This document shows, in pieces, positions 563 through 14,900 of a stretch of DNA of 36,627 nt. Positions within the stretch are counted from its first letter, which is position 1, and every line of letters starts with the position of its first letter. The translations under genes were made by a program, and so were the position numbers. The notes below the pieces were generated by a model that worked only from the letters and a program-made list of their open reading frames with translations, had not been told where the DNA came from and did no database searches. Source of the DNA: Nitrospirales bacterium (lineage in GTDB: Bacteria; Nitrospirota; Nitrospiria; Nitrospirales; UBA8639); contig JAAXIB010000050.1 in the NCBI GenBank assembly GCA_012270585.1, forward strand, positions 1-36,627, given 5' to 3'.

Positions 563-2255
563 ATGCCGACCCTTGATTTCAAAGGCAAACAACTCGTTTA
601 CGCTCACCACCTGACCGTTCCGTCACGGACACTGGAGCCGGACTCTCAAAAAAGCCTACCTCAGCAGAAGCGGGGGGGGGGCAGCCCGATCGAAAGGGCA
701 ACAACCATCCCTGAACGACAATCTGATTATTCACGGCGACAACCTGCACGCGCTCAAGGCACTGATGCCCCGCTACGCAGGCAAGATCAAGTGCATCTAC
801 ATCGACCCGCCCTACAACACCGGCAACGAAGGCTGGATCTACAACGACAATGTGAACAGCCCCATGATGCAGGAGTGGTTGCAAGACAAAAGCCCCGTGG
901 ACGACGAAGACCTGGAACGCCACGACAAATGGCTGTGTATGATGTGGCCTCGGCTGCACCTGTTGCAAGAACTGCTGGCAGAGGACGGGGCCATCTTTAT
1001 TTCCATCGACGACAACGAACAACACCGCCTACGAATGATGATGGATGAAATTTTCGGAGAAGAGAATTTTATTGCCAATATCGTGTGGCAAAAGAAATAC
1101 GCTCCCGCCAACGATGCAAAATATTTCTCCGACAACCATGACTTTGTTATCTGTTATGCCAAGAACAAATCAAAGAATGGCAACAACGGCGAAGAAACGG
1201 GCTTCTGGCAACGCAACCTCCTCCCACGAAGTGAAAAACAAGACAGGTCCTATAAATATGATGACAAAGATGGGAAAGGACTTTGGCGTACGGATAACTT
1301 GACGGGCAAATCCTACTCACCCGAATACAATTACCCAATCGTCAATCCTAATACCGGAAAGGAGTACTATCCTTCTCAAGGAACATGTTGGCGAACAAAC
1401 AAAGAACAAATGCAGGTATGGCTGAAGGAAAACCGTGTTTTCTTCGGGCGCGACGGTAAAGGTGCGCCACAACTAAAAAGATACCTGCTGGAGGTCCAAC
1501 GGGGAATCGTTCCTTTGACCATCTGGCCTTATGATGAGGTGGGACACACAGATGGTGCCCGCAAAACCCTCAAGGAAATCTTCAGTGAGCAACAGTTGCC
1601 CTTTGACAACCCCAAGGCCGTGGGCTTGTTACAGCGGATCTTCACCATCGCCACGGATAAGGACGCCATCATCCTCGACTCCTTCGCTGGCTCCGGCACA
1701 ACGGCACACGCGGTCCTGGCGCTGAACAAGGCAGACGGCGGCACCCGTCAATTCATCCTGGTGGAATGTGAAGACTATGCCGACACAATCACCGCCGAGC
1801 GCGTTCGCCGTGCCATCAAGGGCGTGCCGCAGGCCAAAGACGAAAACCTGAAAAACGGGCTGGGCGGCAGTTTCACCTATTGTACGCTGGGCGATGAAAT
1901 CAGCCCTGAAAAAATGCTCACCGGCGAGAGCCTGCCGGACTACGAAACCCTGGCCCGTCACCTCGTGTACACCGCAACCGGCCAGGCACCGGACAGGATT
2001 CGTCAGGCAACCGACAAAAACGGTTTCTTCTACGAAACGAGCGACAAGCTGTTTTATCTGATATACGAACCGAACCTCGCTTTCCTGCGTAGCGCCGATT
2101 CCGCCCTGAACAGCGACCGCGCGGACCGCATCGCCAAGCAGGCAAAGAAAAAGCAGAAAACCGCTATCGTCTTCGCCACACACAAATTTATTGGACAGCA
2201 GGAATTGACCCAGATGGGGATCACGTTCTGCGGATTGCCGTATGTAAATTTCTGA
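563..2255 (+). CDS. Type III restriction-modification DNA adenine methyltransferase (Mod), frameshifted at a poly-G tract
   Basis: The product would methylate adenine in the recognition site of a type III restriction-modification system and form the recognition part of the Mod/Res complex. ATG 563 opens with a typical Mod N-terminus (MPTLDFKGKQLVYAHH), but this frame runs out at 1048. The catalytic part lies in another frame (ATG 765 to TGA 2255, 496 residues), and that frame is open upstream to at least 663, encoding NLIIHGDNLHALKAL just before 765. The two frames meet at ten G (672-681); nine would join them into 563 residues. Visible motifs are IDPPYNTG at about residue 80 of the joined protein and DSFAGSGTT about 290 residues later, the order of beta-class N6-adenine methyltransferases. 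The res gene lies downstream at 7089. The break could be phase variation, a fixed mutation or a sequencing error in the homopolymer. Confidence 0.88.
672..681 (+). repeat. Homopolymeric G(10) tract inside mod
   Basis: Ten consecutive G lie 109 bases into the mod reading frame. As read, the tract switches translation from ATG 563 out of the methyltransferase frame. Loss of one G (or gain of two) would restore it. Such tracts are the known switching element of phase-variable type III mod genes in several pathogens. Whether this one varies cannot be seen from one sequence. Confidence 0.7.
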
Positions 2256-2308
2256 GGCGACCTGCTCCCTTTTGACCATCAGAGTCTGAACGGGAAACAA
2301 TAGAGGTT

Positions 2309-3445
2309 ATGTACGATATTAAAAAATATAATGAAGTAATAGAGGCGTCTTCCCCATCTCCATTGCGCTGGGCTGACTCTTACACGCACCAGGAGTGCTC
2401 ATTGCATCAACTATCCCCATACATAGGGAAACTAAAGAGCGTGATCGCAAAAGACCTTGTCCTCAAGTATAGTCAGCCAGGCCAGTTAGTGGCAGATATG
2501 TTTTGCGGAAGCGGTACCGTGCCACTTGAAGCCGTCCGTCTTGGCCGACGTGTCTTTGCCTCTGATATGAGTCAATACGCCGTGACATTGACTAAAGGCA
2601 AGCTGTACGCACCAACCCGAATCGAACCCGCACTTGCAGACCTTGACCGCCTTCTCAAGCGCGTCGAATCGCTGCCTCTGCCTGACCTCCGAAGTGTCCC
2701 ACGATGGGTTCGAGCTTTCTTTCACCCTCGCACATTGAAAGAAATCCTCCGTCTCAGTCAATTTCTTAGAAACGAACGGCACTATTTCTTGCTGGCATCC
2801 TTGCTCGGCATCCTGCATCATCAGAGGCCTGGGTTTCTGTCCTTTCCAAGCAGTCACCTCGTTCCTTATCTTCGATCAAACAAGTTTCCCAAAGCCGTTT
2901 ACCCCGACCTTTACGAATATCGTCCAGTTGCCTCACGCTTGAAAGCAAAAGTAGAACGCGCCCTGAAACGTCCGCCGAGAAACTCATTTCTTGAATTAGT
3001 CAATGGCATTCGCAAATCCTCTGTGGAATCCGTTAATCTCCCCGATGCCATTGATTGTGTCATCACAAGTCCACCCTACATGAACGCACTCGATTATGGG
3101 CGAGACAACCGTCTACGGCTCTGGTTTGTAGGTCAACCGCACATGGAATCTCTGGATCGTGCTCTCAGTGGTCTCAGCGGCTTCACGAATGCGATAGACG
3201 CACTTGCTAAACAATTACAGCAAAAAATGCGCCGGGGTGGGTATTGTGTCTTTGTTATTGGCGAGCAGTTGGTTCGAAAGAGAGACCGATTTCCTTCTGA
3301 AGAACTGATGCGAATTTTCTCAACATGCGCCCCAACATTTCACCTCTGTCAGGTTATGAGCGACGTCATTCCCGATGTCCGCCGCTCACGCAGACGGCTT
3401 GCCGGAGTCAAACGAGAGCACATTCTTGTATTCAGAAAGCACTGA
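2309..3445 (+). CDS. Second DNA methyltransferase (TSPPY type)
   Basis: This 378-residue protein is a probable S-adenosylmethionine-dependent DNA amino-methyltransferase. Motif I (ADMFCGSGT) is at residues 62-70 and the catalytic motif TSPPY at 253-257, with a long middle region that could be the target-recognition segment. The order I then IV differs from the upstream Mod protein, so this is not a duplicate of it. SPPY favours N4-cytosine or N6-adenine chemistry. ATG 2309 is preceded by AGAGG at short spacing. The stop codon is two bases before the start of the kinase-like gene, which suggests co-transcription. A role in marking self DNA for the downstream ATPase module is inference. An RNA guanine-N2 methyltransferase related to Trm11 is a less likely alternative. 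Confidence 0.8.
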   Translation: MYDIKKYNEVIEASSPSPLRWADSYTHQECSLHQLSPYIGKLKSVIAKDLVLKYSQPGQLVADMFCGSGTVPLEAVRLGRRVFASDMSQYAVTLTKGKLYAPTRIEPALADLDRLLKRVESLPLPDLRSVPRWVRAFFHPRTLKEILRLSQFLRNERHYFLLASLLGILHHQRPGFLSFPSSHLVPYLRSNKFPKAVYPDLYEYRPVASRLKAKVERALKRPPRNSFLELVNGIRKSSVESVNLPDAIDCVITSPPYMNALDYGRDNRLRLWFVGQPHMESLDRALSGLSGFTNAIDALAKQLQQKMRRGGYCVFVIGEQLVRKRDRFPSEELMRIFSTCAPTFHLCQVMSDVIPDVRRSRRRLAGVKREHILVFRKH

Positions 3446-3447
3446 AT

Positions 3448-4116
3448 ATGCGCAAGTACCTACCCGAAAAAGAATTATTTCTTGGAAAAACGATAGAGAA
3501 CCATGTGATTCAAGAATATGTTGGTTCAGGAAATAACGGTCTTGTGTTTCGGGCATTTAACGAATCGACAAATAGTACTCACGCTTTCAAAATCGTTCCC
3601 AAAGATAACCTCGCTGGCCAATATTTGGAGGAGGCAAGGAAAGCTAATGTTTTAGAAAACTCATCTGTTGTGAGATGTCATGGTGTCGTCGAATATTCAG
3701 ACTCCAACGTAGATTGTGTCGTTTTCATATATGACTATGTGAAAGGTGAAAGTCTCAAAGATTATATAAAGCACGACCAATCCAATATCGACCTGCATTT
3801 CATTGAAAGCTTTTTGGAAACGATGCTCGGGTTATTACACGAACTCAAGGAACGAAGATATCAACATGGGGATCTGCACGCCGGCAATGTACTCGTTGCA
3901 AAATCCGAATTCGATATTCGTGAGCGAACGACTTTCCGAGTCACAGATTTTGGCGTTCGAGAATTGACCGGAGCAACTGCCCACGCAAGTGACTATCTGC
4001 ATATCGCGGACACACTCAGGCAATTGCTAGAACGCGTGGAATATCGCGATTGCGAGGGCGAGGCTCGGTATATCTACACGATTTCAGCACGATTTTGTGG
4101 GACGGCATTTAACTGA
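3448..4116 (+). CDS. Small protein-kinase-like protein, probably the N-terminal part of a kinase-ATPase fusion
   Basis: The 222-residue product has the core of a eukaryotic-like kinase fold: a glycine loop GSGNNG (26-31), the ATP-binding Lys48 in HAFK, a catalytic loop HGDLHAGN (140-147) and a metal-binding DFG (167-169). HGDLHAGN resembles ABC1- or aminoglycoside-kinase-like loops more than the classical HRD form. Only about 50 residues follow DFG, so most of the usual C-lobe is missing. ATG 3448 is chosen because the methyltransferase stop is two bases before it. In the ATPase frame, codons just before GTG 4097 read HDFV and continue into GRHLTETDP. Removing one base near 4087 joins the kinase to the ATPase as one protein of about 821 residues. 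Two overlapping genes remain possible. The substrate is unknown. Confidence 0.75.
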   Translation: MRKYLPEKELFLGKTIENHVIQEYVGSGNNGLVFRAFNESTNSTHAFKIVPKDNLAGQYLEEARKANVLENSSVVRCHGVVEYSDSNVDCVVFIYDYVKGESLKDYIKHDQSNIDLHFIESFLETMLGLLHELKERRYQHGDLHAGNVLVAKSEFDIRERTTFRVTDFGVRELTGATAHASDYLHIADTLRQLLERVEYRDCEGEARYIYTISARFCGTAFN

Positions 4117-5914
4117 AACTGACCCCAGCGCAGATTCATTGGCCTGTAATCCTCGGGCACTGATGGAGAAACTGGATTCTTTACACAATCAGTATGCAGC
4201 TAAAAAGGAGAATACTGGCTCTACGCTCGAAACACCTTTTGACTATCCTAATTGTGAACAAATCGGAGACTCCCATCTCCTACTCAAAAATCTTTACTCA
4301 GATCGTCTGCTTGGGTTGTCAGAAATTCAGGCTCGGTCAAACGTTATACTGACCGGACCTCGAGGATGTGGGAAGACTACCGTTTTCCGTGCATTGAGCC
4401 TCGAATACTTGACTGCAAATCAAGAAGATACCCCTAATGACCTGAAGTATATTGGTATTTATTATAGATGTGACGATCTTTACTTCTCTTTTCCAAGATA
4501 TAAGACTCCTGAACGCCCTGAAGCACTTGACATTCCCTTGCATTTCCTGACGGTCACGTTGCTGGCAACTGCTTTGGAGCAGATAGGAGTATGGGCAAAA
4601 AGGCATTTCTCAGATGAGTTCGAAAACAAAGAAGAAGCCCTTGTCGCAGGACTTTGGGATTTATTTGAGTGGTCACCTCCAGACAGCCCAACGACTAATC
4701 AATTGGCCACCCTGGTTGCGAGGTTAAAAGGTAAGGAGAGAAAGCGCGCAGCAGAAAAACAACGATTCATTCACGTGGAGAACGAACCTATCCAAAACTA
4801 TTTTAGTCCTGATGTGATACTTAAAGCTTGTCGTTTTATTCGGAACAAATTTTCTTTCCTCCACGACCGTCCCTTCTATTTCTTTATCGATGATTATTCA
4901 CTTCCAAAAATTACCGAAGACTTGCAGGCAAATCTTAATCGATTACTCATGTATCGTAGCCCGGATATTTTTTTCAAAATCTCGACAGAAAGTCCTGTCT
5001 CTTTTGCTCGTAAGGACATCGACAACAAACATTTCGTCGAAACTCGTGAATACGATTTATTGAATCTTGGATTACGGTATATCACGGAAGACTCAAATCA
5101 AACGCTCGAATTTCTTGAGGACTTATTCAAGCGTCGCTTCCAAAAGGTTGCTGGATATCCAGTCCAGACTCTCGAAGAGCTTCTCGGGTCAATGCCACGT
5201 AATGAGAACGCCACGGCTCGGGCTTTTCGGGAAAATTTTCATGAAGAGAGTGATCGAGAAAACTATGCGGGAAGAGAGACTGTTGCCGCCATGTGTAGCG
5301 GTGATATCCATTATATCATTCGTCTTGTTTCCCGTATGGTGGAAGATTATGGAGGCAGAGACGCCCTGACAAGGTCTAGAGCAGAACCCCTCATACCGCG
5401 AAAAGAACAACACAAGTCGGTTCGTGCCGCTGCAGGTGCTTTTATGGAATCAGTGCGCACGCTGCCTCGTTGGGGATCACGACTAAGTGAGGTCGTGACA
5501 GCATTCGGCAACGTGGCACACTCTTATCTCCTATACGAGACTTCAACCAATGAAGAACGTAAACCTCCTCACCAAGCGTCAAGGATCGAGCCCTATGAAC
5601 CGCTACATATAACTAACGAAGCACAAGAGATCCTTGACGAATTGCTGCGTTATTCAATACTCCTCGAAGATCCCCGTGGAATGAGCCGACGTGGAAAAGT
5701 CGTGCCAAGATTCTACCTTCGACGTTATTTGATCCCTCATTTCCATCTGACGTTCAGTCGCCGAGATTCTCTTCAATTGGAAAATCACGCGATTGAAACC
5801 CTTTTGTGTGAACCGCAGAAATTTGAGAGCACGATGAAATTAAATTCGGAAGATCATGCTGCACGACGACATCGGCGTGATCCAAATCAAGAGGACCTTT
5901 TTCCTGATGAATAG
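4097..5914 (+). CDS. ORC/AAA-like P-loop ATPase of the defence island
   Basis: This 605-residue ATPase has a Walker A motif GPRGCGKTT (87-95) and a Walker B FYFFIDDY (260-267). The long charged insert between them and the helical, winged-helix-like C-terminal third recall ORC/CDC6- or STAND-type ATPases in defence loci. No nuclease motif and no membrane segment is visible. GTG 4097 is the first start in frame and overlaps the kinase-like gene by 20 bases; without it the protein would be fused to the kinase through a one-base frame change. The stop overlaps the next gene by eight bases. The likely role is an ATP-driven sensor or signal relay; that is inference. Confidence 0.75.
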   Translation: MGRHLTETDPSADSLACNPRALMEKLDSLHNQYAAKKENTGSTLETPFDYPNCEQIGDSHLLLKNLYSDRLLGLSEIQARSNVILTGPRGCGKTTVFRALSLEYLTANQEDTPNDLKYIGIYYRCDDLYFSFPRYKTPERPEALDIPLHFLTVTLLATALEQIGVWAKRHFSDEFENKEEALVAGLWDLFEWSPPDSPTTNQLATLVARLKGKERKRAAEKQRFIHVENEPIQNYFSPDVILKACRFIRNKFSFLHDRPFYFFIDDYSLPKITEDLQANLNRLLMYRSPDIFFKISTESPVSFARKDIDNKHFVETREYDLLNLGLRYITEDSNQTLEFLEDLFKRRFQKVAGYPVQTLEELLGSMPRNENATARAFRENFHEESDRENYAGRETVAAMCSGDIHYIIRLVSRMVEDYGGRDALTRSRAEPLIPRKEQHKSVRAAAGAFMESVRTLPRWGSRLSEVVTAFGNVAHSYLLYETSTNEERKPPHQASRIEPYEPLHITNEAQEILDELLRYSILLEDPRGMSRRGKVVPRFYLRRYLIPHFHLTFSRRDSLQLENHAIETLLCEPQKFESTMKLNSEDHAARRHRRDPNQEDLFPDE

Positions 5915-6968
5915 CCACATTTCTAACACCCCCTTGCTAAGACCAGATGAGAAATTGCGCAAGGTAGTCTGGCCAAGCCTCCAAGAGATCGAATTGCCTT
6001 CTGTAGGGATTGATGACTGTTTGTTGGTATGTGCCGGATTTGAAGATCGTGCTATCGAAACACTCCGCCGAACTTGTGAGGCGGGAAGAACCAGTTTCTC
6101 GCTTGGCATCGTGAGTTATCGTCCAGACTATCAAGAAAATAGAATCAGAGAACTGCGGACAATTAGCGAAAAAGCTGCTCTCCAGATAACGGATTTTGTC
6201 TATGATCGAACAAACCCAGCAGGCATGGGAGAAGAACTCCAACACTTTACAAGGCAATTTGATCGTGTTTTTATTGATATTTCCGGCATGTCGCGTCTTC
6301 TCATCGTGCAAACATTGGTGGCGTTAATCAGCGAACAGAGCCAGCCAATAACAATAATCTATGGCGCGGCAGAAGAATATCCGCCATCCAAAGATCAATT
6401 TGAACAGGATAATAATGATAGTAATGCCAAGCCAGCACCAAGCTACCTGTCATCTGGAATTTTTGAAATAGCAGCAACCCCCGAACTGAGTTCCGTATCC
6501 ATGTTGGGGGAGGCGATCAGACTGATCTCGTTTCCATCATTTGCTCATGAACAGCTCACGAATTTGATTCAAGAACTGCAACCTACTTACGCAGAATTTA
6601 TTCATGGCGTACCACCAGCTCAAGAGAACACATGGCGAACGGAGGCAATCCGCGCTCTCAATCGTCTAACACTGAATGAACTTCGATGGAAAAATGAGCA
6701 TAAGACGTCCACGCTTGACTACAGAGAAACGTTACATAAATTGCTTCAGATCTATGCAGAACGCAACATGTTCGATCGCCTCGTGGTTGCTCCTACCGGC
6801 AGCAAGATGCAGGCTGTCGCCGTAGGGTTATTCCGTGCAGTGCTTCATGACGTACAAATCGTTTACCCGACGCCACAGACTTTCACAGAACCCGGCAGAT
6901 ATACTTTAGGGTTTCGGCAACTGTACAAGGTTGATCTCCCAACCAAGGCAATAAAGGCCTGTGCCTGA
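5907..6968 (+). CDS. Unknown protein with two Rossmann-like halves, possible ligand sensor
   Basis: I do not recognise a named family for this 353-residue protein. The N-terminal half has a strand-loop motif VCAGFEDRAIETLRR (41-55), then DRVFIDISGMSR (119-130) ahead of a helix and a strand ITIIYGA. The C-terminal half repeats the logic with RLVVAPTGSKMQAVAVG (291-307) followed by a strand DVQIVYPTP. A Thr/Ser-Gly-x-(K/R)-containing loop between a strand and a helix is also seen in CARF-type nucleotide sensors, so a ligand-binding role is conceivable but unproven. No catalytic nuclease motif is seen. ATG 5907 is preferred over ATG 5856 because GAGGAC lies about ten bases upstream; it overlaps the ATPase stop by eight bases, indicating translational coupling. 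Confidence 0.65.
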   Translation: MNSHISNTPLLRPDEKLRKVVWPSLQEIELPSVGIDDCLLVCAGFEDRAIETLRRTCEAGRTSFSLGIVSYRPDYQENRIRELRTISEKAALQITDFVYDRTNPAGMGEELQHFTRQFDRVFIDISGMSRLLIVQTLVALISEQSQPITIIYGAAEEYPPSKDQFEQDNNDSNAKPAPSYLSSGIFEIAATPELSSVSMLGEAIRLISFPSFAHEQLTNLIQELQPTYAEFIHGVPPAQENTWRTEAIRALNRLTLNELRWKNEHKTSTLDYRETLHKLLQIYAERNMFDRLVVAPTGSKMQAVAVGLFRAVLHDVQIVYPTPQTFTEPGRYTLGFRQLYKVDLPTKAIKACA

Positions 6969-7088
6969 TAAGCGCTGATTAGGCGTAACATGCTGTCGCG
7001 TTTCATGAACGTTTGCCACAGGCAGTTTTCCGTTCTAGCGCAGAACCAGAACGCCTCAATGATTTTCTTACGAAGCAAATAGGTTGAC

Positions 7089-9620
7089 GTGCAACTCAAA
7101 ACCTACCAGCAAAACGCCCTTGAGCAGTTGGACCGCTGGCTTGCTGCGCTAAAAGAGGCACTTAAAGACGCGGCGGACGGTGAAGAGTTTTACGCGAAAA
7201 AGAAAAAACCTATTCCAGAAGAATTGAAAAATTATCCTCGGGCAGCATGGCAGAGTCTTAAAGATACAAACGTTCTTCCCGGTATTCCAAACAACGGGAA
7301 CCTTGCAATCCCTGACTACATCTCCCGAACCGGAACGTCCGGTGAGCCTATTCCGCATGTCTGTCTGAAGGTGCCGACCGGCGGCGGCAAGACCCTTTTG
7401 GGCGTTGCCGCGCTTGAGCGTATCAAGCAGGACACGGGCTTCGTGCTGTGGATCGTGCCGACCAAAGCAATCTACGAGCAGACGCTCAAGGCCTTCAGAA
7501 CCCGCGAGCATCCCTACAGGCAGATGCTTGAGAAGATTTCCGGCGGCAAGGTCAAACTGTTGCAGAAGGACGACCGTTTCACCAAACAGGACGTCGAAAG
7601 CCGACTCTGTATCATGATGCTGATGCTACCATCCGCCAACAGGCAAAAAGGAAGGGATTTTCTTAAGATATTCCGGGACAGCGGTAGCTACACCTCGTTT
7701 TTTCCCGAACAGGACGATTCAAGCGCCAACCACACACTTTCAGAACGGCACCCCGACATGGAGAAAAACAACACCGGCGGCGGGGTGAAACACAGCCTAA
7801 TCAACGTACTGAAGCTGATTCGCCCCACCGTCATTCTGGATGAGGCGCACAAGGCGTATGGGTCGAATGACAGAAGCAACATCGAGTTTGTCAAGTCCGT
7901 CAATCGACTCAATCCCCGCTTTGTGCTCGAACTGTCAGCCACGCCCAAAATCGGTATCAGCAACATCCTGGTCAACATCTCGGGAACCGAGCTTCAGGCC
8001 GAGGAGATGATCAAACTGCCGATAGAGATTCACAGCTTCGGCAACTCGGACTGGAAACACACACTTGCCGAAACCCAGCGGAAAATACAGGAACTGGAAA
8101 CCGAAGCGCAGAGACTTCAAGCACGGGAAAACCGCTATATCCGTCCCATTGCCCTGGTCAGGGTACAGCGAACGGGTGGAGAACAACGGGGTAGAAGGAC
8201 CATCCATTCAGAGGACGTGCGAGAGTACCTTGTACAACATCTTGCCGTTCCGCAAAGCCGAATCAGAGTGCAATCATCGGAACAGAAGGAACTCGCGGGC
8301 GAGGACCTGCTTAGCGAAACAAGTCCCGTTCGCTGGATTATCACCAAAGATGCCCTCAAGGAGGGTTGGGATTGCTCGTTCGCTTACATACTGGCTTTAT
8401 TGGATAACACCACGGCGACCACGGCCATGACCCAGATGACCGGTCGGATCATGCGACAGCCGCACACGCGCAGAATTGAGCAAAGCGACGCCCTGAACCA
8501 GTGCTATATTTATTGTTACAACACGGACGTGGGAAAAGCCGTCGAAAGGGTGAAGGCCGGGCTGGAAAACGAGGGGCTGACTGGACTTGGCGATGCCGTC
8601 AGAGGCGATGGTGAAGGTGACGCGCCGCAATCACAAATCATCAAGCGACGCCCAAGGTATAAAAGACTTCAAATCTTTCTTCCGCAGGTTCTGCACAAAG
8701 AAGGTTATAGGTGGCGTCCGATTGATTACGACCGCGACATACTGGGAGTGATCGATTGGGGCGGAATCGACGTGGGAGAGGCGGTGAATCTGGACGAGAA
8801 TGACACGATTCGGGAGATTATCGCTATGGTTGACGTTCAAGGTGAGAGCCATGTCTCCGATGAGGCCTTTGAGATCGGCGAAGGCTTGCATCTTGATTTT
8901 TTCGTCAGGCGACTGACGGACGTAGTGCCCAATCCATGGCAGGCTGCGCGCATGGCAGCGAATTTTCTCAAAAAACACACAGGATGCAATGATTCAAAAT
9001 TGCTGAATAACCGGATTTATCTCTCAGGGGTTTTGCGTCAGAGGATCAAGACAGAGATGGACAAGAAGGCCGAGTCGATTTTCCGCAGCAAGATCCAAAA
9101 CGATGCGATCAGGTTTCATCTCGAAACCGACGAGAAATTGGATTATGAACTGAACAAGTCGCTTGAGGTTTTTGTGTCCGGCAAGGAAAGATCGCTTCAG
9201 GGCAAACACGCCCAGCCGATACAGCAAAGTCTTTTCGAGCCCGTGTATGAAAGCAATTTCAATGGACTCGAAAAGGATTTCGCGCTGTATCTGGACAAGA
9301 GCAAGGCCATATATTGGTGGCACAAGATCGCCGCGAGGCAACAGTACTACCTCCAAGGATGGAGACGTCAGCGGGTCTATCCCGATTTCGTCGCCTGCAG
9401 ACGGGATGATCGAACACTTCTGATCCTGGAAACAAAAGGCGTTCACCTGAAGGGGAATGAGAATACGGACTACAAGAGGAAACTGCTTGAGACCCTCGAA
9501 AAGGCGTACAACAAGGCCTTTGACAGAGGGGAAATGAGAGTCTGTGAGCCACCTGCTATTTTCAGGATGATGTTTGAAGATCGCTGGGAAGAACAGGTCG
9601 GCGAACTTGTTGCGGAATAG
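7089..9620 (+). CDS. Type III restriction enzyme, Res subunit (helicase-nuclease)
   Basis: This 843-residue protein is the ATP-dependent translocase and nuclease of a type III restriction system, which cuts DNA when bound to Mod at unmethylated sites. Visible motifs are Walker A PTGGGKT (near 96-102), DEAH (251-254), SATP shortly after, the arginine-finger region MTGRIMRQP, and a C-terminal PD-(D/E)xK nuclease with Asp766 in YPDFVA and ExK at 781-783 (LILETKG). All key residues are present, so it appears intact. The start is GTG 7089, after a weak AGG. A 120-base gap separates it from the previous gene, and it probably needs the mod product at 563-2255 for recognition. If mod is out of frame, this enzyme should be silent. 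Confidence 0.92.
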   Translation: MQLKTYQQNALEQLDRWLAALKEALKDAADGEEFYAKKKKPIPEELKNYPRAAWQSLKDTNVLPGIPNNGNLAIPDYISRTGTSGEPIPHVCLKVPTGGGKTLLGVAALERIKQDTGFVLWIVPTKAIYEQTLKAFRTREHPYRQMLEKISGGKVKLLQKDDRFTKQDVESRLCIMMLMLPSANRQKGRDFLKIFRDSGSYTSFFPEQDDSSANHTLSERHPDMEKNNTGGGVKHSLINVLKLIRPTVILDEAHKAYGSNDRSNIEFVKSVNRLNPRFVLELSATPKIGISNILVNISGTELQAEEMIKLPIEIHSFGNSDWKHTLAETQRKIQELETEAQRLQARENRYIRPIALVRVQRTGGEQRGRRTIHSEDVREYLVQHLAVPQSRIRVQSSEQKELAGEDLLSETSPVRWIITKDALKEGWDCSFAYILALLDNTTATTAMTQMTGRIMRQPHTRRIEQSDALNQCYIYCYNTDVGKAVERVKAGLENEGLTGLGDAVRGDGEGDAPQSQIIKRRPRYKRLQIFLPQVLHKEGYRWRPIDYDRDILGVIDWGGIDVGEAVNLDENDTIREIIAMVDVQGESHVSDEAFEIGEGLHLDFFVRRLTDVVPNPWQAARMAANFLKKHTGCNDSKLLNNRIYLSGVLRQRIKTEMDKKAESIFRSKIQNDAIRFHLETDEKLDYELNKSLEVFVSGKERSLQGKHAQPIQQSLFEPVYESNFNGLEKDFALYLDKSKAIYWWHKIAARQQYYLQGWRRQRVYPDFVACRRDDRTLLILETKGVHLKGNENTDYKRKLLETLEKAYNKAFDRGEMRVCEPPAIFRMMFEDRWEEQVGELVAE

Positions 9621-9630
9621 CGCAAATCAC

Positions 9631-10419
9631 GTGGAGCATCAAGGAGGAGTCTCGATCATAAAACTCACGAGGCACGGATGGTATTCTTTTGCCGGTCGTA
9701 TCGGAATAGGCTTGTGTCTTGTCTTGCTTGCCGGAACCATCCAGGCGGAATCGCCGTCTACTGTTCACGTAGGGACTTTCTCTCGCGCAACGGAGGGAGG
9801 ACCCTATCCTGATTCCTGGAAGCCCCTCACGTTCCATAAGATCGACGAGCATACCGAGTACTCGTTGGTGGAAGACGACGGGATCGTGGTTCTCAAAGCC
9901 GTGAGCCGCGGTTCTTCCTCGGGGTTGACCCGAGAGGTGACCATCGACCCCAAGCTCTATCCCATTGTCGAATGGCGCTGGAAGATCGAGAACGTGTTGC
10001 AAAAGGGCGACGTCACCACCAAGGAAGGAGACGACTACCCTGCCCGGTTGTATATCACTTTCGCCTATGACGAGAGCAAAATCGACTTTTTGGACCAAGC
10101 CCGATATGAACTGGCCCGGCTTCTCCACGGGCAGTACCCCCCGACCGGAGCCATCAATTACATCTGGGAGAGTCGAAGCCCGATCGGGACCTTGGTCCCC
10201 AATCCGTACACGGATCGCGTGAAAATGATCGTCCTTGAAAGCGGCGAGGCAAAAGCCGGACAGTGGGTTGTCGAGTCGCGGAACCTGCACGAGGATTATC
10301 AAAAAGCGTTCGGGGACGACCCGCCCATGATCTCCGGGGTGGCCGTGATGACGGATACCGACAATACTCAAGAATCCGCCGTGGCCTATTACGGCGACAT
10401 CGTGTTTAGGAAAGAGTAG
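9631..10419 (+). CDS. Exported DUF3047 protein
   Basis: The 262-residue product carries a Sec signal peptide (hydrophobic stretch IGIGLCLVLLAGT, cleavage after QA) and a DUF3047 body, seen in the VEWRWKI strand, the YPARLYITFAY segment and the terminal VAYYGDIVF motif. It should be periplasmic; its role is unknown. The start is uncertain. GTG 9631 is in frame but has no clear ribosome site. A strong AAGGAGG (9641-9647) is followed eight bases later by ATC and ATA codons, which would be unusual starts. The gene begins ten bases after res, so the island may have been inserted just upstream and altered its native start region. Confidence 0.82.
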   Translation: MEHQGGVSIIKLTRHGWYSFAGRIGIGLCLVLLAGTIQAESPSTVHVGTFSRATEGGPYPDSWKPLTFHKIDEHTEYSLVEDDGIVVLKAVSRGSSSGLTREVTIDPKLYPIVEWRWKIENVLQKGDVTTKEGDDYPARLYITFAYDESKIDFLDQARYELARLLHGQYPPTGAINYIWESRSPIGTLVPNPYTDRVKMIVLESGEAKAGQWVVESRNLHEDYQKAFGDDPPMISGVAVMTDTDNTQESAVAYYGDIVFRKE

Positions 10420-10443
10420 GGAACAACGGTCGTTGTTCCCTAC
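10416..10443. terminator. Strong 12-bp inverted repeat after the DUF3047 gene
   Basis: GTAGGGAACAAC (10416-10427) and GTTGTTCCCTAC (10432-10443) form a perfect 12-bp stem with a four-base loop, overlapping the DUF3047 stop codon. The T-run after it is poor (TTGG), so it may act as a weak bidirectional terminator or an mRNA-stabilising hairpin. Confidence 0.5.
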
Positions 10444-10449
10444 TTGGTG

Positions 10450-10473
10450 TCGGGTTACGCTACGCTAACCCGA
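10450..10473. repeat. Dispersed palindromic repeat, copy 3
   Basis: TCGGGTTA (10450-10457) and TAACCCGA (10466-10473) flank CGCTACGC. It is the same family as 306-331 and 15645-15670. Copies 1-2 and this copy lie on either side of the restriction island. Confidence 0.75.
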
Positions 10474-10542
10474 GCTACGGGATGGGGGGCCGATGCCGTA
10501 CGGATAGAAGGCGAATCCGGATCACATGCCGGCAAACGGACT

Positions 10543-11757
10543 CTACCGTTTTCTATCTTTGCGCCGGCGAATATATTCGTCCAGCAACGGAACTGCCAAG
10601 ATATATTTACCGTGCCGGTTTTTGAAGACCATGCCTTTGGCGAACAACGCAGCCAGCATCTGATTGACATGGCTACTGCTAAAAGCGTGCTTGGTAGATT
10701 TTGACTGCTCGACAATTTCCTGTACGGTGAATTCCCCGCCGCTGTTTTCCAAACAGGCAATGATGTCAAGCAAGTCCCGCTGTCGGTCTGTTAGCTGTGC
10801 CCAGCGGCCTTCAAAAAAATCCATATCCAGCTTTCGGGAAATGCGCTCGACAAGATCCATGTCTTGCTCTTCCACAATCTGCGTGACGCCGACACGATAA
10901 TCGTATAACTCCCTACACCAGAATTGAATAAAATACGGATAGCCGCCAGTGAGACTGTAAATTTCGCTACTGTTCATGTTAAAAAAATCTTGTATCTCAT
11001 CAGGTTCGTTATCCAGCGGTTTCATGATTGCTTGATGGGAATCATCAGAGTTGAGATTGTCCAGAGCGACGACCCGGAACATACGCTCGGCATAGGTCCG
11101 AGACTCCACCAGTTTTGGAAACAACGTTGGTAGCCCGGTCAAAACCAGCATAAACGGTGCACCTTGACTTTGCAGGGAACTGAAGACATCCAGCAACACA
11201 CCCAGAGGATATTCATTGTCCTTGCTTCGGTCCGCCAGATTTTGCGCCTCGTCCCAAGCGAATATGATCCCTCTTTTGTCTGGCATGTTTTTCCGCATCA
11301 ATTCCCAAGCGAGAAGCAAAATCCGTTTGATTTTATCCGAAGTCAAACCAGGCTCATATTCAAACAATGTCTTCATGGTCTGGTAATCAAAGCGGCTTAC
11401 TTGGCGCTCTGGCGAGGCGGTAAACCCTGGGGGAATCCGTTCATTAGAGGCATACTCCCAGGCACCGGAAAAGGTGTTCAAATCCGTCAGCAACCGGCGT
11501 GCAAGGTGGCTTTCACTGACGGAGACCGCTTCGGAAATATCGCTACCCGCCCAAAGCCAGCCGTTTTCAACGGCGTCTTTGCGAAGCGCTTCTTTCATCA
11601 GAACGGTTTTGCCGATGCCCCGGATACCGGTCAGAACCATATTTTCCAAGACTGGATTTTGTTTCAAAAGGCGAGAGAATTCGCTTCGCTCCTTATTGCG
11701 CCCGGCGAAATAAGGTGGAACATGAGCTGCACCCGGTCTGTATGGATTGTCTTTCAT
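10543..11757 (-). CDS. Orphan AAA ATPase with C-terminal winged helix
   Basis: This 404-residue ATP-binding protein has Walker A GIRGIGKT (44-51), Walker B GIIFAWDE (163-170), an arginine-containing segment around YAERMFR, and a C-terminal winged-helix-like region (from about TDRQRDLLDII) that would bind DNA or a partner. It resembles archaeal-type or STAND-like ATPases whose cellular job is usually unknown. It stands alone between two unrelated genes, on the strand opposite the island. Its promoter lies in an extremely A/T-rich gap (see 11809-11836). No Shine-Dalgarno sequence is visible before ATG 11757. Composition and isolation suggest acquired DNA; a defence role is possible but not shown. 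Confidence 0.8.
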   Translation of the reverse strand: MKDNPYRPGAAHVPPYFAGRNKERSEFSRLLKQNPVLENMVLTGIRGIGKTVLMKEALRKDAVENGWLWAGSDISEAVSVSESHLARRLLTDLNTFSGAWEYASNERIPPGFTASPERQVSRFDYQTMKTLFEYEPGLTSDKIKRILLLAWELMRKNMPDKRGIIFAWDEAQNLADRSKDNEYPLGVLLDVFSSLQSQGAPFMLVLTGLPTLFPKLVESRTYAERMFRVVALDNLNSDDSHQAIMKPLDNEPDEIQDFFNMNSSEIYSLTGGYPYFIQFWCRELYDYRVGVTQIVEEQDMDLVERISRKLDMDFFEGRWAQLTDRQRDLLDIIACLENSGGEFTVQEIVEQSKSTKHAFSSSHVNQMLAALFAKGMVFKNRHGKYILAVPLLDEYIRRRKDRKR

Positions 11758-11808
11758 TGATAAATTAATTTAAAATTATATTAACTACTAAATTTATAGT
11801 GTTATATA

Positions 11809-11836
11809 ATTATACATAATTTCTGATTTATGGCAA
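11809..11836 (-). promoter_or_regulatory. Sigma-70-type promoter of the orphan ATPase
   Basis: On the minus strand TTGCCA (11836-11831) is followed after 16 bases by a perfect TATAAT (11814-11809). Transcription would start near 11802, leaving about 45 untranslated bases before ATG 11757. The surrounding stretch 11758-11820 is almost entirely A and T. Confidence 0.65.
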
Positions 11837-11927
11837 GGATTTGGAGAATCTTCTCAAAAAAAATATGAAATATGATTTGGAGGCTGTTCGCAACCTGTCA
11901 AGCGCCATGCCTTTCGCACCAACCTCC

Positions 11928-14900
11928 TTACAGCAGATTCGGGGAGAGCCATCGCTCCACGGTGGCCACATCCATCTGCTTGCGCGCGGCGTAGTCCTTC
12001 ACCTGATCGTGGTCGATCTTCCCCACGGCGAAGTATTTGGCTTGAGAATGGGCAAAGTACAGGCCGCTGACCGACGCGGCCGGAGCCATGGCATACGTTT
12101 CCGTCAGGTGAATGCCGGCATGCCGTTCGGCCTCCAGCAGGTCGAACAGGATCCGTTTTTCGGTGTGGTCCGGGCACGCGGGATAGCCCGGAGCCGGACG
12201 GATTCCACGATAGCGCTCCCGGATCAGATCCTCAGCCGACAGGTGTTCTTCTTTGCCGTACCCCCATGCCATGCGGACTTCACGGTGCAGCCATTCAGCA
12301 AACGCTTCAACCAGCCTGTCGGCCAGGGCTTTTGCCATGATGGCGTTGTAATCGTCATGGTCTTTTTCAAATCGCCCGCACAAGGCCTCGACCCCGTTCC
12401 CCGCGGTCACGGCAAACCCGCCCAGGTAATCCGGAAGCCCCGTTGACTTGGGCGCGATGAAATCCGCCAGGGCATAATTGGCATCGCCTTCCGGTTTTTC
12501 GAGTTGTTGGCGAAGGGTATGGAACGTCGCCAGGACCTCCGAGCGCGATTCATCCGTATAGACTTCAATATCGTCGTCCACGCTGTTGGCCGGGAAAAAC
12601 CCATATACCGCCTTGGCCGTGAGTAACCGGTTGTCGAGAATCTCCTTGAGTAATCCCTGGGCGTCATCAAACAGCTCTTGGGCCTTGCTCCCGACAACCG
12701 GATCATCGAAGATCTTGGGGTATCTCCCCTTCAACTCCCACGTATGGAAAAAGGGCGACCAGTCGATCACCGGGACCAGGTCGTTTAACGGCTGATCGTC
12801 GATCACCCGCGTTCCCAGGAAACCCGGCGTCGCTCGCTCCGACGTTTGCCAATCTATCGAAGTCCGCCGCCTCCTTGCCTCTTCCAACGGCAGCAACTTC
12901 TTCAGGGTTTTCTTGCCTTCATAGGCTTCGCGTGACTGCCGTTGTTGTTGCCGAACCTTTTCCACGAACCCGGGTTTTTCTTCTTTGCTCAACAGTTGCC
13001 GGACGACGTTCACGGCCAACGATGCATCCGACACGTGCACGACCGGCTCGGGGTAGCCCGGTGCGATTTTGACGGCCGTGTGGGCTTTGCTCGTCGTGGC
13101 GCCGCCGATAAGGAGTGGCACGTCAAAGCCCTGGCGGGCCATTTCTTGCGCGTTGTACGCCATCTCTTCCAACGACGGGGTAATCAAGCCGCTCAAGCCG
13201 ATCATATCGACCCGCTCCTCTTTGGCTTTTGTCAGAATCTTTTCGCAGGGTACCATCACCCCGAGATCGATCACGTCGTAGTTGTTGCACCCCAACACTA
13301 CGCCGACGATGTTTTTGCCGATGTCGTGGACGTCGCCTTTGACCGTGGCCAGCAGCACCTTGCCCTGGACCGTACTGCCCGACGCTTCCTTTTCCTGATC
13401 CATGAACGGCAGCAAATACGCCACGGCTTTTTTCATGACCCGTGCGCTTTTGACGACTTGCGGCAAAAACATTTTTCCGGCACCGAAGAGTTCTCCCACG
13501 ACGTTCATGCCGTCCATCAACGGACCTTCGATGATCTTGAGCGGCTTGTCATATTTCTGCCGGGCCTCTTCCACGTCTTCGTCGATATAGTCCACGATCC
13601 CTTTGACCAACGCATGCGAGAGCCGCGCTTCGACCGGGCCTTCCCGCCAGGCATCGGCTTTGACAGCCGCCTTGCCCTGCTGTTGCACGGTTTCGGCGAA
13701 GTCGACCAACCGCTCGGTCGCGTCGGGCCTTCGATTCAGCAGGACGTCCTCAACCAATTCCAGCAGGTCCTTGGGGATCTCCTCGTAGACTCCCAACTGC
13801 CCGGCGTTGACAATGGCCATGTCCAGCCCGGCTTTGATCGCGTGATACAGAAACGCCGAGTGCATGGCCTCACGCACGACATTGTTCCCGCGGAACGAGA
13901 AGGAAATGTTACTGACGCCGCCGCTGGTTTTACAGTGCGGTAACGTGGCTTTGATCCGCCGAACGGACTCGATGAAATTGACCGCATAGTCGTTGTGCTC
14001 TTCAATGCCCGTGGCGACCGTCAGGATATTCGGATCGAAAATAATGTTCTGCGGCGGAAACGCGATTTCTTCCGTCAGGATCTTATAGGCCCTGGTGCAA
14101 ATCCCGACCTTCCGGTCGATGGTATCGGCCTGCCCCACTTCATCAAACGCCATCACCACCACGGCCGCGCCGTACCGCCTGATCAGTCGGGCCTGTTCCT
14201 TGAATTTCTCCGCGCCTTCCTTGAGGCTGATGGAATTGACGACGCCCTTGCCCTGCACGCATTGGAGCCCGGCCTCGAGCACCGACCACTTCGAGCTGTC
14301 GATCATGATCGGAACACGGCAAATATCGGGTTCCGAGGCAATGAGGTTCAGAAACTGCACCATGGCGTTCTCGGAATCCAGCATGGCTTCGTCCATGTTG
14401 ACGTCAATGAGTTGCGCGCCGCCCTCCACCTGCTGCCGGGCCACGGCCAGGGCTTCCTCGAACTGACCCTCGCGAATCAACCGGGAAAATTTCGGTGAGC
14501 CCGTGACGTTGGTCCGCTCTCCGATGTTCACGAAATTCAGCTCGGGCCGGATCGTCAAGGGTTCCAACCCACTCAGCCGCGTGGCATGATCGGGTTCGAC
14601 CACCGTATGGGGGGGCAGATCGCGCACGGCTTCGGCAATCACCGCAATATGCTCCGGGGTGCTTCCGCAGCATCCGCCCACGATGTTCAACCACCCGTTT
14701 CCGGCAAACTCCCGTAAATCCTCCGCCATCCGCTCCGGTGTTTCGTCAAACCCACCGAAGGCGTTCGGCAGCCCCGCATTCGGATGGCAACTGATGTAGA
14801 CCGGGGCACGTTTCGACAGTTCCTCGATATAGGGACGCATTTGCTTGGCCCCCAAGGCGCAGTTGATACCGACGCTGAAGGGATCCGTATCGGCAATGGA

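Follow-up and report, generated by a model that had tools for sequence, protein, structure and literature searches.

What separates the modification gene (mod) from the restriction gene (res) in the type III restriction-modification (RM) locus of a Nitrospirales bacterium, and does it belong to that RM system? The locus was analysed on a stretch of 36,627 nucleotides (referred to as the window) that constitutes an entire contig (JAAXIB010000050.1 of GenBank assembly GCA_012270585.1; G000:C33) of a genome of 2.5 Mb over 89 contigs, which shares its genus with Nitrospira sp. SB0677_bin_15 (locus L002). All window genes discussed below lie on its forward strand. An initial annotation, made from the sequence alone, had placed four genes between mod and res (i.e., a second DNA methyltransferase, a kinase-like protein, an ORC/AAA-like ATPase and a protein with two Rossmann-like halves) and had read them as one unit, possibly part of a composite with the type III system. 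Here, they are described as a three-gene module, encoding a DNA methyltransferase, a kinase-ATPase fusion that is broken in the window, and a CARF protein, which recurs independently of mod and res and is probably a self-contained, so far unnamed anti-virus module.

Distribution of the module and its insertion between mod and res

Nine loci (the window, L002, L003, L005, L019, L020, L021, L022 and L024) carry the complete set of methyltransferase, kinase/ORC ATPase and CARF genes in a conserved order; besides a plasmid and two IMG/VR contigs, they cover two or more bacterial phyla. With identical order and adjacency of the three families in all nine, their association exceeds chance, and the co-occurrence check proposed in the initial annotation thus turned up the gene set elsewhere, both with and without mod/res. 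In L002, as in the window, the module sits between mod and res, while in a gammaproteobacterium (L003) it sits between the HmaA and HmaB genes of an Hma operon (profile matches of 1.5e-180, 4.6e-108 and 7.8e-100 for HmaA, HmaB and HmaC, respectively). It was also present on Bradyrhizobium quebecense plasmid NZ_CP088025 (L005), between the minor tail protein and tape measure protein genes of one IMG/VR contig (L019), on a second IMG/VR contig (L024), and in three genomes from other Nitrospirota families (L020, L021 and L022), standing alone amid housekeeping genes in the latter two. In a Gemmatimonadota locus (L004), the CARF gene was located at the contig end. The module is rare in the sampled genomes (5/296 Nitrospirota and 1/398 Pseudomonadota), and full-length methyltransferase and CARF occurred in exactly the same ones (5/5 and 1/1, respectively).

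The host locus was assigned to type III RM by PADLOC matches of mod (563–2255; MTase_III, 7e-165) and res (7089–9620; REase_III, 6e-218). Homology of the window to module-less genus mates ended at 2244 and restarted at 7088–7090, placing the insert exactly between mod and res as had been annotated, although mod itself turned out not to be one frame (see below). The whole cargo, from the mod stop to the res start, extends from 2256 to 7088, and module-less relatives have no homology to it. In these genus mates, the mod-res interval was nearly empty (L069 and L070) or held a TPR-DUF2971-like gene (L071, L072, L073 and L075), with an additional HEPN-like gene in L071. Since genus mates carry mod-res without the module, and other hosts carry the module without mod/res, the module represents cargo occupying a variable site and is separate from the restriction system. 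The proposed composite with the type III system was therefore rejected.

The mod-res intervals also carry short copies of the first ~25–66 bases of res, with one such copy followed by a mod-end-like stretch in L002, as if cargo had repeatedly been gained by recombination at this junction. As a side observation, the junction looks like a cargo hotspot in the genus (for TPR-DUF2971, HEPN-like and CARF module genes), and the duplicate res-start bits, together with the mod-end-like piece in L002, resemble relics of older insertions.

Proteins encoded by the module

The open reading frames (ORFs) and spacings of the initial annotation (a gap of 2, an overlap of 20 and an overlap of 8 bases) were verified, and PADLOC and Pfam profiles upheld its Mod/Res, N4/N6 methyltransferase, kinase domain and ORC-CDC6-like ATPase assignments.

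CARF proteins are mainly known as receivers of CRISPR-made cyclic oligoadenylates. The third module gene (5907–6968), whose product was indeed a two-halved Rossmann protein, encodes a CARF-fold sensor of the CARF6 clade with motifs DISGMSR and APTGSKMQ, and was matched by PADLOC CARF6 profiles down to 2e-17. An AlphaFold2 (AF2) model based on five sequences (pLDDT 64.7, pTM 0.70) was good for most of residues 8–155 and poor for residues 156–270. When this model was run in VIA-align against Foldseek's best PDB chains, the top 17 rows were all CARF proteins, headed by Card1 (6wxw; Z 12.9, 3.0 Å over 129 residues) and further including Cdn1, Csa3, Cam1, Csm6, Can2, Can1 and ring nucleases, with the first unrelated row at Z 8.5. 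Foldseek alone was equivocal, with methyltransferases among its matches, and searching PDB sequences with the CARF profile yielded nothing significant. The DISxM[ST][RK] and GSK[ML]Q motifs were kept in 9/9 aligned homologues, and the former (D124-I-S-G-M-S-R130 in the window, with invariant D and S and with R or K in the last position in the 9 homologues) matches the CARF signature reported previously, [DN]X[ST]XXX[RK], which follows strand 4 (PMC4012209).

The CARF protein was encoded by a separate gene in 9/9 loci. That of the window was 70% identical to its counterpart in a gammaproteobacterial metagenome-assembled genome and 63% to that in a Gemmatimonadota one, compared to 25–42% for Nitrospirota outside its genus, indicating horizontal transfer. 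A search of the phage collection with the CARF protein returned no match.

The first gene (2309–3445) encodes a DNA methyltransferase (Pfam N6_N4_Mtase, 1.1e-10) with motif I ahead of the TSPPY motif and with a highly conserved central region. This motif order and TSPPY suggest an N4-methylcytosine (m4C)-type enzyme, and its nearest PDB matches include N4-cytosine methyltransferases. In trees, the methyltransferase of L019 grouped with that of L020 (97/95), while the L019 ATPase and CARF protein grouped with those of L021/L005/L024. Given the long branches, this supports with moderate confidence that the methyltransferase was swapped at least once, and that the ATPase and CARF genes moved together.

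Relatives of this methyltransferase occur with other partners. On viral contigs L031–L033 (37–38% identity to the window enzyme) and on Salmonella plasmid CP148763 (L083), the methyltransferase gene is followed by ParA-like ATPase and SIR2 genes (9920–12977, 9920–12979, 9926–12977 and 3986–7045, respectively), while on IMG/VR contig L034 (9935–12827) a methyltransferase of the same family precedes GmrSD_N (DUF262) and HEPN-like genes. Both sets thus resemble the module in having a same-family methyltransferase as the first of three genes, but differ from it in that the module partners are the kinase-ATPase and CARF genes. The methyltransferase appears to be exchangeable. The ParA/SIR2 cluster in itself resembles an unnamed SIR2 defence; it had no match in the E. 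coli genomes searched, and the L034 methyltransferase had none in the phage collection.

A broken kinase-ATPase gene in the window

The two middle ORFs of the window encode a Ser/Thr kinase domain (3448–4116; AFKIV lysine, HGDLHAGN and DFG; Pfam Pkinase, 8.6e-16) and an ORC-CDC6-like AAA ATPase part (4097–5914; P-loop GPRGCGKTT with an internal Arg, FIDDY Walker B; Pfam PF24389, 2.6e-51), with kinase catalytic and P-loop residues conserved across homologues. In seven of the eight relatives (L002, L003, L019, L020, L021, L022 and L024), both parts are a single gene of 810–909 aa (810 aa in L002). The annotated unit thus stood, given its recurrence with unchanged order across the nine loci, but it comprises three genes and is split in four in the window, where the kinase ORF is the 5′ part of a broken fusion gene. 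DNA alignment with L002 and L003 located a net 2-base deletion (4076–4100, near 4081) that parts both frames in the stretch joining the kinase and ATPase domains, and of which the 20-base overlap is a by-product. An AF2 model of the fusion was of low confidence (pLDDT 58.7, pTM 0.35) and was used only to position the kinase C-lobe helices, which in this model extend beyond the break.

The exception among the relatives is the Bradyrhizobium plasmid copy (L005, 12270–14965), whose frame is broken within a few codons of the window break by a shift of opposite sense, after which homology carries on in the second frame. That one linker was broken twice independently could indicate either tolerance of two chains or repeated inactivation. 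Programmed frameshifting was set aside, since the window and Bradyrhizobium copies need opposite shifts and the remaining copies are fused.

In mod, ORFs 563–1048 and 765–2255 are mutually out of frame at a poly-G tract (G10, 672–681) in the variable N-terminal linker. This run was found in 0/8 other orthologues compared, and the L002 orthologue is a single 544-aa ORF. The tract might reflect a phase-variable type III RM system, decay or an assembly error.

With the frames of mod and of the kinase-ATPase gene both broken, the copy in the window is likely to be off or impaired. That it is a decaying relic, with both genes being pseudogenes here, is a serious possibility that falls somewhat short of probable, and one that is compatible with a defence function of intact copies. 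The G10 run breaks mod, and the net 2-base deletion interrupts the fusion gene ahead of the last predicted kinase helices. However, the ratio of nonsynonymous to synonymous substitution rates (dN/dS) versus L002 is 0.09 for the methyltransferase and 0.19 for the kinase, and past the break it stays as low as elsewhere (0.18 for the ATPase and 0.19 for the CARF protein), so any decay must be recent. Moreover, the Bradyrhizobium split at nearly the same place leaves room for two tolerated chains, a G10 tract is a typical substrate for phase variation, and an assembly error is possible.

Relation to known systems

The kinase, ATPase and CARF proteins of the window were separately matched (2.5e-11, 2.7e-17 and 1.6e-12, respectively) by PADLOC PDLC01925 (CARF6--CARF_STK_AAA), the CARF6 STK-AAA-CARF family. 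In 2014, Makarova et al. described a "small family" of single-chain Zn ribbon-kinase-AAA-CARF proteins (PMC4012209), which corresponds to PDLC01925. The module resembles PDLC01925 in having a kinase, an AAA ATPase with a P-loop Arg and a CARF part in identical order, but consists of separate genes plus a methyltransferase and has no Zn ribbon (the N-terminus of the window kinase has no Cys pair), whereas PDLC01925 has all domains on a single polypeptide and a Zn ribbon at the N-terminus. A Loktanella plasmid protein (L068) matches PDLC01925 end to end (1752 bits); this triple fusion, the sole example examined, has no methyltransferase of the module family beside it and adjoins a NaeI RM system. 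The end of viral contig L026 (9842–12412) carries a fusion of kinase and ORC ATPase whose N-terminus has Zn-ribbon-like Cys pairs, with no methyltransferase upstream.

No whole-set match was found in NCBIfam or PADLOC, which bears out the earlier view that the composition was unrecognised, except that PDLC01925 and PMC4012209 cover the methyltransferase-less single-chain kinase-AAA-CARF relative. Likewise, the libraries searched held no name for the methyltransferase-bearing operon, its docking in type III RM and Hma loci or its phage carriage. An earlier mention in CARF classifications is possible, and the novelty of the methyltransferase association is unproven, while the single-chain relative is already known.

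The likeness to known kinase and methyltransferase defences that had been pointed out was borne out by profiles touching the methylation-associated defence system (MADS) and PD-T4-6. In MADS, the kinase matched mad6 (5.4e-19), the methyltransferase mad2 (1.4e-6) and the ATPase mad8 (1.3e-4), but the MAD6 match scored 38.3 bits versus the NCBIfam cut-off of 460, a CARF protein is present and no other mad genes were seen. PD-T4-6 and Stk2-type kinase defences resemble the module in a lone Ser/Thr kinase domain with a comparable profile (5e-14), whereas the module kinase is joined to an ATPase and is operonic with the methyltransferase and CARF genes. Finally, like Pgl/BREX type 2, the module combines a DNA methyltransferase, a protein kinase and an ORC/Cdc6-type ATPase, but it has a CARF protein and no PglZ (none was found among the mod-to-res proteins of the window) nor any PglW/PglX-sized proteins. 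Pgl, which is built from a DNA methyltransferase, a kinase and an ATPase, is a demonstrated defence, and its kinase has been proposed to pass on the signal of infection (PMC4365076).

A possible methylation-gated kinase defence

The composition of the module, its gene order, the CARF fold and signature, its spread across phyla and replicons and its independence from mod/res are established, whereas its mechanism is inferred. On balance, we lean towards a mobile, methylation-gated and CARF-controlled kinase defence resembling Pgl and MADS that entered the mod-res junction as cargo. By analogy with Pgl, the methyltransferase would mark resident DNA at a fixed target, while the ORC-like ATPase would assemble on or survey DNA. 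Upon binding of an infection signal (a cyclic or cyclic-ended nucleotide) by the CARF protein and/or an encounter with unmarked DNA, the ATPase-linked kinase would be switched on and phosphorylate a host or phage target, thereby arresting infection. The CARF ligand would then have to be made elsewhere, since the module encodes no cyclase. As such, the module would amount to a small-scale counterpart of Pgl/BREX type 2 and MADS in which CARF, in place of PglZ, serves as the trigger.

A defence role is favoured by the presence of the module within an Hma operon, within RM loci, on a plasmid and amid phage tail genes, by the pairing of related methyltransferases with SIR2 and HEPN genes, by the precedent of Pgl, and by the low dN/dS of every module gene (0.09–0.19). 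Several points weigh against it. The window copy is frame-broken in both mod and the kinase-ATPase gene; no cyclase is encoded among the module genes in the nine loci, nor is there a consistent one in the hosts, as Cas10 palm scored above cut-off in 2/7 genomes and SMODS in 3/7, with two genomes (G061 and G565) having neither above the curated cut-off. The module also lacks a nuclease or any other canonical killing domain, which leaves the kinase as effector or transducer. Finally, the central region of the methyltransferase is unusually conserved for a self-marking enzyme, which may therefore have a fixed target or not chiefly self-mark.

In a more specific form, to which we give slightly less than even credence, this would be an unnamed, horizontally moving module in which a cyclase-free CARF protein controls a kinase-ORC ATPase, an exchangeable methyltransferase shared with SIR2/HEPN clusters gates self from non-self, and docking into type III RM and Hma loci provides a second line of defence. 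Such a unit raises the questions of which ligand CARF6 reads outside CRISPR, and of whether a CARF-triggered kinase cascade, with DNA methylation as its safety, operates in bacteria. One methyltransferase family with three partner sets (kinase/CARF, ParA/SIR2 and GmrSD_N/HEPN) would suggest that methylation-gated defence follows a plug-in principle in general.

Alternatively, the module could be a cross-talk accessory, whose CARF protein reads the cyclic oligonucleotides of a separate type III CRISPR system or cyclic-oligonucleotide-based antiphage signalling system (CBASS) and whose kinase acts as a second-line effector. The CARF fold is nearest to the cA4/cA6-binding Card1, Csa3 and Cam1, and the window genome has two SMODS CD-NTase matches, while G593 and G008 have a Cas10 palm. 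Nevertheless, we regard this as unlikely: G061 and G565 have neither above the curated cut-off, the annotated neighbours of the module include no adjoining cas or CD-NTase gene, and no cyclase flanks the phage- and plasmid-borne copies.

Less likely still is that mobile elements carry the module as an addiction or competitor-exclusion cassette, maintained for its own propagation and not for host defence, in which, as in a toxin-antitoxin pair, a toxic kinase is restrained by the methyltransferase and CARF protein. Carriage by a plasmid and IMG/VR contigs would fit, as would the finding that the Pgl methyltransferase is toxic in its own right when its partner PglZ is absent (PMC4365076), but the module is rare and sited in RM/Hma loci.

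That the kinase/CARF pair is a regulatory add-on controlling the activity or expression of host RM/Hma enzymes by phosphorylation would suit its placement in mod-res (the window and L002) and HmaA-HmaB (L003) and that of the triple-fusion relative beside NaeI RM (L068), but is made improbable by the standalone copies in L021 and L022, the viral contig copy between tail genes, and the common occurrence of module-free RM pairs in the genus.

With regard to neighbouring genes, a thyX thymidylate synthase gene immediately follows the CARF gene in two distant loci (L005, 16145–17068; L020, 8703–9704).

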